In this document: positions 34,654 through 40,193 of the stretch, one piece after another | Layout of the letters: every line of letters starts with the position of its first letter | Numbering within the stretch: the first letter of the stretch is position 1 | Notes under the pieces: model-generated | Told to the model about the DNA's origin: nothing | The model's database searches: none | What the model saw: the letters and a program-made list of their open reading frames with translations, nothing else | NCBI RefSeq assembly: GCF_900101845.1 | Contig: NZ_FNAM01000028.1 | Location: 1-64,000 of the forward strand | From: Sporomusa acidovorans | GTDB lineage: Bacteria; Bacillota; Negativicutes; Sporomusales; Sporomusaceae | Length of the DNA: 64,000 nt | Direction: 5' to 3' | Made by a program: the position numbers and the translations under genes

Positions 34654-34896
34654 GTGCCAAGTGATGGATGGGATAATCCTGAGATTGAAGAATGGGAAGA
34701 AGAAGAATCAGACGATTTTCGTCAATGTTTTCCCTTTGGTTGCTATCCACGTCGATTCTGTTTTCCGCGTCAATGTTTTCCTAGATTTTGCTTCCCACGG
34801 CAATGCTTCCCTAGATTTTGCTTCCCGCGCCAATGCTTTCCTAGATTTTGTTTTCCACGCCAATGTTTTCCAAGACAATGTTATCCACGTCGATAG
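34654..34896 (+). CDS. Cysteine pentapeptide-repeat protein (C-F/Y-P-R-x)
   Basis: An 80-residue protein of two parts. Residues 1-22 are very acidic (EIEEWEEEESDD). The rest is a tandem array of about ten five-residue units C-[FY]-P-R-[QFR], giving eleven Cys spaced almost exactly five apart. There is no signal peptide and no helix. GTG start after AAGGAATGA; a clear terminator follows. I do not recognise the family. In a spore former, a cross-linkable Cys/Arg-rich repeat suggests a coat, crust or metal-binding protein, but that is inference. Confidence 0.7.
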   Translation: MPSDGWDNPEIEEWEEEESDDFRQCFPFGCYPRRFCFPRQCFPRFCFPRQCFPRFCFPRQCFPRFCFPRQCFPRQCYPRR

Positions 34897-35199: not shown

Positions 35200-35824
35200 A
35201 TTCGTAGTGGCGAAGGTAAGAGTAGATAGGAGCACAACGGACCAGAGTGTATATCTGGATAGGGTAAACCCTGCGATTTGTGCGCGGCGCGCCAGGCGAG
35301 GTTCCATTTTTCCTGTCAAGTAATATAGAATTATCTTCAAGCTTATCTTTATGCCAATACCATAAGATAACCGCCAGCAAAGTCACAAGATAAAAGGTAA
35401 TAAAAAGCATGATCCTAAGACTCCAAAATAATAAAGATACAGGCGGTATATAGTCGTCTTGGCCGTACTAGTGAGCGTATGCCCTAGGGGATGCTGCATG
35501 AACGAATTGGCGGCTAATATCCAAAAAGCGGAGATGTTAGCTGAAACTGCTGAAAACATAACCAACAAAGCGGGAGAACTCTGCCCAGTTCATGCCAAAT
35601 TCAAACTCCTGAACAAGCCCGGTAAGAATACCCACGGTATAATTGATTAGGAAAAGTTTACCCCAAAACTTTGCCATCGTTTTAAATTTCTTCCGGCCTG
35701 TACAAACATATATAGTTTCCATTAAAGCAATAAAAATTGATAGTCCCAGAGTAAGCGAAACAAACCAGAAATGATATGTAAGGGTTGAGGCAAATTGCAA
35801 TCGTGCCAGAAATAATTTATCCAT
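35200..35824 (-). pseudogene. cydA: Cytochrome bd oxidase subunit I (cydA) remnant
   Basis: From an ATG at 35824 the frame encodes a recognisable CydA N-terminus (FLARLQFASTLTYHFWFVSL, GKLFLINYTVGILTGLVQEF, FGMNWAEFSRFVG) but stops after about 95 residues. A second frame continues with SAVSANISAFWILAANSFMQ HPLG in order, after an internal deletion. A third, from about 35410, carries a hydrophobic fragment ending HKDKLE. A complete CydA has about 450 residues, so most helices and haem ligands are gone. No intact cydB follows. The leader upstream carries a repeated structured element. Confidence 0.8.
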
Positions 35825-35863
35825 TCGAATCCTTTTACTTATGGGCTATGATAGTGGGATTAG

Positions 35864-37656: not shown

Positions 37657-38229
37657 CTAGATGGTACCAACTTTTCTAAAATCCCTTTTGATACCCGGTT
37701 CACCCGGTTTCCAACCAGCCGGTACTCCTTCACCAGTTGCCTCACCATACTGAATGCCTTGAAGTGTGCGGATAATCTCCCATACATTTCGGCCCACTTC
37801 ACGAGGATATAGGGAATAATAACGAATTCGTCCGTTAGGATCGATAATAAAGGATGCACGGTAAGCTACGCCCTTGTCTTTATCCAATACGCCGTAGGCA
37901 CGTGAGATATTGCCGTTACGGTCAGAAAGGAGCGGGTACATTACTTTCTTAGCGCTAGGCGAGGTTTCAGCAAATACTTTATGAGAATAAACGCTATCAG
38001 TGCTGATTGCTATAGCATCTGCATCAAGTTCACGGATGCAAGGATAAGCAGCGGCAACTGCCGCTAACTCAGTTGGTCAAACAAAGGTAAAATCGCTGGA
38101 ATAAAAGAAAAGAAGCAGCCAGCAACCCCGAAAGTCATTTAGGCATACCTCTATTTCTTTTCCACGGTAATATGCGGGAGAACAGAAATCAGGAGCCATC
38201 TCCTCGAGCCGGAAACAGGTTTTATCCAT
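37657..38229 (-). CDS. prxU: Selenocysteine-containing peroxiredoxin (UGA at codon 51)
   Basis: A 190-residue 2-Cys-type peroxiredoxin if the in-frame UGA at 38079-38077 is read as selenocysteine. The N-terminus (MDKTCFRLEEMAPDF) and the C-terminal part (YPLLSDRNGNISRAYGVLDK, RASFIIDPNGRIRYYSLYP) are in one frame, and the UGA falls exactly at the peroxidatic position, giving TFV-Sec-PTEL where other family members have TFVCPTEL. A short hairpin starts 11 bases after the UGA, as in bacterial SECIS elements. Known PrxU proteins from amino-acid-fermenting Firmicutes have the same site. It would reduce peroxides in this anaerobe. An ORF caller would split it in two. It needs SelA, SelB, SelC and SelD elsewhere in the genome. 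Confidence 0.88.
38050..38065 (-). promoter_or_regulatory. Candidate SECIS hairpin for prxU
   Basis: Read on the minus strand, AGCGGC-AGTT-GCCGCT is a perfect six-pair hairpin with a four-base loop containing G and two U. It begins 11 bases after the UGA, inside the coding region, at the distance where bacterial SECIS elements are recognised by SelB. Confidence 0.65.
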
Positions 38230-38447
38230 ATTATACACCTCCTACTATTGGCTCAATGTATAATATGTGGTAGATTATGTAACGGTGATTCCAATCTTGG
38301 TAAAGGTTGAGTTTAATTTTGACCCAAATCTTATAGTAGGTTTTTTTGAACAAATAGCGAATGATGATATATTTAGTGCCGCGGAGACTCGGGTTTACCG
38401 ATAGAAATAATATAAATTCGTGGGGCAAATTTAGGAGGTATTTTCAG

Positions 38448-39494: not shown

Positions 39495-40193
39495 ATGAAC
39501 AAGCTAAAAGCAATCTATGATGTGCTGAAGATCATGAAAAGCAAAGAAATGGTGACAGGAAGCCTTACGGCTAAGGTGGAAAAGGACCAGGTGAAGATGT
39601 TTGGCTTGGAAAGTGAATTTGAAAAAAATCTGGTCACCGGAAAAATCAAGCCCAAAGTGAATCTGGAAATGGATTATGAGGGAAGACCGGCAGTCGGTGA
39701 AGCTGATGAATTTCATTCCGAGCATTGCCAGCCGACGGGGGGAGGACATGATCGTTTTTATCATAAAATTCGCGGTCTGGATGTAGGCGCTGATGATTAT
39801 TTGACCAAACCCTTCAGCCCGGCGGAACTGGTGGCCAGAATCAAGGCGCATCTCAACCGCTACCAACGCCTGAGAGGTATCACTCCGGCCTGGGATATTC
39901 TGCAGGTCAAGGGGTTGGAAATTAATACGGCATCTCGCAAGGTATGTGTCAATGACAGGGAAATTCAGCTCACCACCAAGGAATACGAGTTGCTGTTGTT
40001 TTTGGCTTCTAATCCCAACATCGTCTTTAGCAAGGAGCATCTATTTAATACCATCTGGGGGAATGAAAATTTTGGCGAGGTGGCCACCGTGGCTGTTCAC
40101 ATTCAGAAGATTCGTAAGAAGGTGGAAAAGGACCCTGGCAATCCCGAGCTAATCGAAACACTATGGGGGATGGGGTACCGTTTAAATTCATAG
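39495..40193 (+). pseudogene. Chimeric response regulator lacking the phosphoacceptor half of its receiver
   Basis: A 232-residue frame built from two unrelated pieces. Residues 1 to about 85 (MNKLKAIYDVLKIMKSKEMV ... LVTGKIKPKVNLEMDYEGRP) belong to some other small protein I do not recognise. From KIRGLDVGADDYLTKPFSPA onward it is the end of an OmpR-type receiver followed by a complete winged-helix domain (LTTKEYELLLFLASNPNIVF, VAVHIQKIRKKVE). The acidic pocket and phosphorylated Asp of the receiver are absent. A deletion joining two genes in frame is the simplest explanation. It could still bind DNA constitutively. No histidine kinase gene is adjacent. Confidence 0.75.

Follow-up and report, generated by a model that had tools for sequence, protein, structure and literature searches.

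Predicted selenocysteine peroxiredoxin gene in the window

The window, i.e., the whole 64,000-nucleotide stretch of the Sporomusa acidovorans contig NZ_FNAM01000028.1 that was analysed, contains a predicted selenocysteine (Sec) peroxiredoxin gene of the AhpC/Prx1 type on its minus strand (37657..38229). The reading frame runs from ATG at 38229 to TAG at 37659-37657 and comprises 190 residues plus the stop, with a single internal stop; direct reading of the sequence places a Shine-Dalgarno-like AGGAGG (38238..38243, minus strand) ahead of the ATG. The internal stop is a TGA (38077..38079, minus strand) at codon 51, in the context TFV-U-PTEL, where U denotes the predicted Sec. The sequence-only reading had described the frame from 38229 to 37657 as open save for one TGA at the peroxidatic position, and this description was exact.

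The product obtained by reading through the TGA was matched by the Pfam domain AhpC-TSA (1.3e-34) and by the Redoxin and 1-cysPrx_C domains. Its AF2 (AlphaFold) model had a mean pLDDT of 84.5 and superimposed on Salmonella AhpC (4mab) with a TM score of 0.90 and on Schistosoma Prx1 (3ztl) with a TM score of 0.88, so that both domain and fold are those of an AhpC/Prx1-type peroxiredoxin. The signature PxxxT/SxxC (or U) is incomplete: Thr48 and Sec51 are in place, and alignment puts Ser44 (codon 44, 38098..38100, minus strand) at the site of the signature proline of PxxxTxxC. The C-terminal resolving cysteine that defines the 2-Cys subtype is also missing, as GEGVPAGW replaces VCPxxW and codons 168-170 (GVP; 37720..37728, minus strand) align with the VCP site. 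The protein is thus homologous to peroxiredoxins and probably works like one, albeit with a broken signature.

Three other features were recorded near the gene. A decayed cydA (35383-35845, minus strand) covers positions 1-87 and 122-159 of the 418 positions of its model, that of cytochrome bd oxidase subunit I, in two frames. A response regulator gene (39495-40193, plus strand) retains a full C-terminal DNA-binding domain, and its receiver domain is a stub that covers 28 of 111 model positions and scores under the cut-off. A small protein with repeated CFPRQC/CFPRF units and no Pfam match is encoded at 34654-34896 (plus strand).

Conservation of the in-frame UGA codon

The best 13 places among the 100 relatives searched (72-99% identity, the window's own gene counted) each contained exactly one stop, which was a TGA. 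A clade of 32 members was assembled from the 100 relatives, further contigs, a sample of 398 genomes from the phylum, and an additional copy in G023 (L128); TGA occupies the equivalent codon in 31 members, and the remaining one (L036) has a cysteine codon there. The homologues thus have either Sec, in these 31 rows, or cysteine, in L036 and the AhpC-type relatives, as is found for bacterial selenoproteins. One check named in the sequence-only reading concerned where the stop falls in close relatives, and the TGA was found at the identical codon in close and distant ones alike. Because the TGA is shared by 31 of the 32 members and replaced by cysteine in the other, neither a sequencing error nor a chance nonsense mutation explains it well.

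The Sporomusa silvacetica copy (L053, a copy of L024) is 90% identical to the window gene. Codon changes relative to four relatives were counted on both sides of the TGA. After it, synonymous and other changes numbered 33/14, 64/34, 65/29, and 62/32; before it, the same four relatives gave 12/3, 14/14, 24/7, and 25/8, so that synonymous changes predominated upstream for three of the four, L034 being the one with 14 of each.

Peroxiredoxin-like matches at greater distance, each interrupted by a single in-frame TGA, were noted in G005 (C42), G011, G013, G017 (C12), G020, G023, G025, G027, G048, and G058. Their open frames span 159-198 amino acids (445 in G058), and they are possibly further selenoproteins.

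SECIS hairpin

The sequence-only reading had placed a six-pair hairpin 11 bases past the TGA, where it is indeed present (AGCGGC/GCCGCU). An additional A-U pair can form inside these six, over GU, giving a putative bacterial SECIS with a seven-pair stem and a two-base GU tip (AGCGGCA-GU-UGCCGCU; 38050..38065, minus strand), and the predicted fold adds five outer pairs past a one-base bulge. The hairpin is marginally stable: for four stretches, 5, 18, 3, and 4 of 200 dinucleotide shuffles folded as well (z of -2.37, -1.31, -2.52, and -2.04, respectively), and the comparison with synonymous-codon shuffles gave a p of 0.12. A p of 0.05 against synonymous shuffles was reached by six of 31 rows of the window's clade, five of 24 PrxU-type rows, neither row in a third Sec group, and none of the 28 Cys rows. 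As the folding energy is weak against synonymous shuffles, the argument for a SECIS is carried by covariation.

All 31 Sec members of the clade have GU at bases 19-20 past the UGA. The pair that closes this GU tip forms in 31/31 (A-U 16, C-G 8, G-C 6, G-U 1), and the pair three positions further out in 30/31 (G-C 18, A-U 11, C-G 1, with A-A in the remaining row); among the 28 Cys rows, the tip-closing pair forms in 16 and its neighbour in only one. In every one of the 31 rows, the tip-closing pair joins the third base of an Ala codon to that of a Val codon, and since both sides are synonymous, the protein cannot account for the pairing. The pair three further out links third positions of Ala codons, except that three rows have a Gly codon on one side. 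Over the stem, 28 cells were changed on both sides compared with a mean of 8.3 in shuffled alignments, and none of 500 shuffles reached 28; sliding the partner strand gave six doubly changed cells at most. With the partner slid by -3, 88.9% of the cells still paired (91.4% unslid), without any double change. Two weaker measures of covariation were equalled or exceeded in 13 and 18 of the 500 shuffles, and of 30 distinct rows, 10 do not form the outer stem pair at columns 16-29.

A scan of the window at gathering scores matched no Rfam SECIS family, and neither did one around the gene at E-values up to 10. The hairpin nevertheless has the form expected of a bacterial SECIS, lying just past the UGA with a G in a small apical loop. 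SelB recognises a G and a U in the loop of E. coli fdhF. The same design was found in the prxU gene of P. acidaminophilum and in a Cytobacillus member (AGUU and GGUC tips). Eight rows of the PrxU clade (L076, L080-L083, L085, L086, and L089) were without an AGUU/GGUC tip at offset 17; seven of them have a hairpin loop six or seven bases farther from the UGA, and L086 folds otherwise. Because the stem of the window's clade covaries at synonymous sites, the case for Sec is strong even ahead of experiment.

Gene neighborhood and the possibility of decay

An in-frame TGA would also be expected of a gene broken by a nonsense mutation. The surroundings of the gene look decayed, with cydA split over two frames with a gap and a partial response regulator, and in G011, a genome from the same family, a relative of the gene is reduced to roughly its final 43 codons (L139:1980-2140). 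We nonetheless regard a pseudogene as very improbable, since the identical TGA codon is kept in 31 of 32 clade members, the changes beyond it are mostly synonymous in a frame that is intact up to the stop, and the hairpin covaries.

The remnant in G011 lies between a phosphomannomutase-type gene and a hydrogenase gene, which are 80.6% and 85.8% identical to their counterparts in G005, where the peroxiredoxin gene occupies the site between them. It is a relic at a site that seems to be the ancestral one, and G011 still has selB. A phosphomannomutase-type gene lies close to the peroxiredoxin gene in several related genomes from the class, and some of these have a nickel-dependent hydrogenase gene on the opposite flank. 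The neighbours compared for the window and for S. silvacetica match neither this context nor each other. No conserved functional partner was found in the neighborhood among the 23 loci compared, the largest neighbour clusters holding six proteins.

Selenocysteine machinery

The sequence-only reading had proposed a search of the genome for selA, selB, selC, and selD, and all four were found: selA (564.1 bits), selB (409.2 bits), selD (387.5 bits), and a tRNA-Sec (selC) with the anticodon TCA that scored 73.9 bits against a gathering score of 47. The selD gene itself has an in-frame TGA, in GGUAS, at the position of Sec in selD selenoproteins.

Among the genomes with a Sec gene that were tested, the genome of L056 being left out of the count, selB scored above the cut-off in 27 of 29 (the window's own, 21/23, and 5/5). 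The two exceptions had no selB match despite a TGA gene: G025, which is 96% complete, has a tRNA-Sec with the anticodon TCA (75.5 bits), and in G027, which is 87% complete, the sole match to the tRNA-Sec model is a tRNA-Ser. As selB also occurs in 13 of 28 genomes that were picked by hand and lack the Sec gene, it is no marker of the gene.

The one Cys member of the clade (L036) comes from G046, which is 99% complete and had no selB match; its only match to the tRNA-Sec model was called tRNA-Ser by ARAGORN. In the tree, L036 is grouped with a Sec member (100/99). The pattern looks like a change from Sec to Cys upon loss of the machinery, with the tree alone giving no direction.

A UGA inserted as Trp or Cys, via near-cognate read-through or a variant code, was also considered, as Cys at this position would make an ordinary peroxiredoxin. 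This explanation is exceedingly improbable given the Sec machinery in the genome, the presence of SelB in 27 of the 29 tested genomes, the covarying hairpin, and selD as a second gene with an in-frame TGA. We therefore conclude from the conserved TGA, the covarying hairpin, and the machinery that the gene almost certainly encodes a peroxiredoxin with one Sec, UGA codon 51 being decoded as such, and the central proposal of the sequence-only reading is supported.

Phylogenetic placement and lost active-site residues

The tree was built from 85 rows of the 115 loci parsed, with 25 PrxU-type rows, four Cys rows, and L053 excluded; the columns of the proline and the resolving cysteine were kept, and Sec was coded X. 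The tree program issued a long-branch warning for L071 and L120. The 24 PrxU-type rows formed one clade (support 100/100). The window's clade (31 Sec rows and L036) was supported at 98/87, and the inner clade without the long row L071 at 94/83.

The window protein scored 179.3 bits against the NCBIfam PrxU equivalog model NF040737, below its curated cut-off of 270, compared with 408 bits for the PrxU of P. acidaminophilum and 373 bits for a second PrxU protein. For the 20 aligned clade members, the best E-value with this model was 5.6e-53, and that of the window protein was 9.6e-53. PrxU was detected above the cut-off in 48 of the 398 genomes of the phylum sample. One candidate, the prxU of MW495066.1 (L161, Microcystis phage MaAM05), was rejected as a selenoprotein because it has TGC and a resolving cysteine, as in an ordinary Cys peroxiredoxin; it lies near ribosomal protein genes, and the 274-kb record may be bacterial DNA.

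The PxxxTxxC proline is replaced in most Sec rows of the window's clade (Ser 18, Ala 8, Gly 2, Pro 3) and is retained in all other 54 rows of the tree. The resolving cysteine is missing in 31/31 Sec rows of the window's clade and in 24/24 PrxU-type rows. Both rows of the third Sec group keep it, as do 27 of 28 Cys rows, with L036 as the exception. In the tree, three independent pairs on starred branches bear on whether Sec goes together with a lost resolving cysteine, of which one agrees and two do not differ; with so few independent events, no correlation is claimed. Six of the 31 Sec rows have no cysteine in the matched stretch (L070 among them being a partial match), and in L057 and L059 the whole predicted reading frame is without cysteine.

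The two rows of the third Sec group (L136 and L137, from G017 and G022) represent another kind of Sec peroxiredoxin, AhpC-type with PLDFTFVUP and a retained resolving cysteine (GLCPLDW), and they nest among the Cys AhpC rows. Both genomes have selB, and the predicted hairpin of these genes is without a G in the loop.

The proposal to align the protein with known PrxU proteins gave a divided answer, in that the proteins are homologous with Sec at the same place, but the window protein is not a strict PrxU (38% identity, score below the cut-off, separate clade). It could still be an ordinary member of the named PrxU family, as the fold family, the Sec position, the missing resolving cysteine, and the hairpin tip are all alike, and a common clade of both Sec groups was not rejected by the data (AU p 0.358). 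We consider this unlikely in view of the 179 bits, the low identity, the separate and fully supported PrxU-type clade, and the proline, which is retained in 24/24 PrxU-type rows and replaced in 28/31 here. In tree and alignment, the window's lineage stands apart from PrxU, with the active-site proline changed to Ser, Ala, or Gly in most members. A bolder reading, that the clade is a distinct selenoperoxiredoxin family without the PxxxTxxC proline and the resolving cysteine, the need for both having been relaxed by selenium, is one to which we would give slightly less than an even chance.

Proposed function

UGA 51 would be decoded by SelB and Sec-tRNA(Sec), guided by the GU-tipped hairpin, a step well supported by conservation, covariation, and the machinery. 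Sec51 would then attack the peroxide to form a selenenic acid, assisted by Thr48 and a conserved arginine, whose roles as catalytic helpers we take to be those known for the family. Because there is no C-terminal resolving cysteine, the selenenic acid may be recycled by an outside thiol, e.g., thioredoxin or a small thiol; a thioredoxin domain was found at three places in the window's own genome. In members without any cysteine, internal resolution would be impossible, and the six with none in the matched stretch would therefore depend on an external reductant. Sporomusa is anaerobic, and the enzyme probably guards the cell against peroxide upon exposure to air.

The clade offers natural peroxiredoxins without the signature proline, some with no cysteine found, in which the effect of selenium on the need for both residues is testable. 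If the reading of a distinct family is true, the clade is a natural test of the role of the PxxxTxxC proline. Selenoprotein genes may be mistaken for broken ones. The sequence-only reading had expected standard annotation to call a gene like the present one truncated or frameshifted, which does not always happen, as the RefSeq CDS of the Cytobacillus spongiae relative spans the TGA.

Comparison with known systems

The PrxU of Peptoclostridium (formerly Eubacterium) acidaminophilum was reportedly described by Söhling et al. in 2001, and we take the prxU locus of strain DSM 3953 to encode that protein. Like the window protein, it is of the AhpC/Prx1 type with Sec at the peroxidatic position and without a C-terminal resolving cysteine, and its gene has a hairpin with an AGUU tip 17 bases after the UGA. 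It differs in sequence (38% identity, with PrxU-type rows in a separate clade), keeps the signature proline where the window protein has Ser44, and, at 240 residues, extends further at both ends. Typical 2-Cys AhpC/Prx1 proteins share the AhpC-TSA and 1-cysPrx_C domains and have matching structures, whereas the window protein has Sec for Cys and lacks the resolving cysteine and the signature proline. WP_225003809.1 of Cytobacillus spongiae, which was outside the 85-row tree, is 54% identical to the window protein, with SSDFTFVUPTEL and GVPANW; it belongs to another order (Bacillales), is encoded on a 690-kb plasmid record, and is named just 'peroxiredoxin' in RefSeq.

Sec-containing peroxiredoxins have been known since 2001, and passages of three reviews describe a TxxU family (PMC13188914, PMC9312934, PMC1088965), whose TxxU motif the window protein shares. 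In the relevant parts of PMC9312934 and PMC1088965, the TxxU peroxiredoxins are placed in COG1225 (Bcp). Elsewhere, a passage on C. sticklandii lists a seleno-peroxiredoxin (PMC3091704), and another calls Sec peroxiredoxins rare (PMC8533274). No paper on the window's lineage was found in the open-licence literature among the matches listed. The motif PxxxTxxU, described as highly conserved in a passage of PMC13188914, is mostly broken in the window's clade. The kind of protein is thus already known, and the window's lineage looks like a separate branch of it that lost two residues kept by most relatives.
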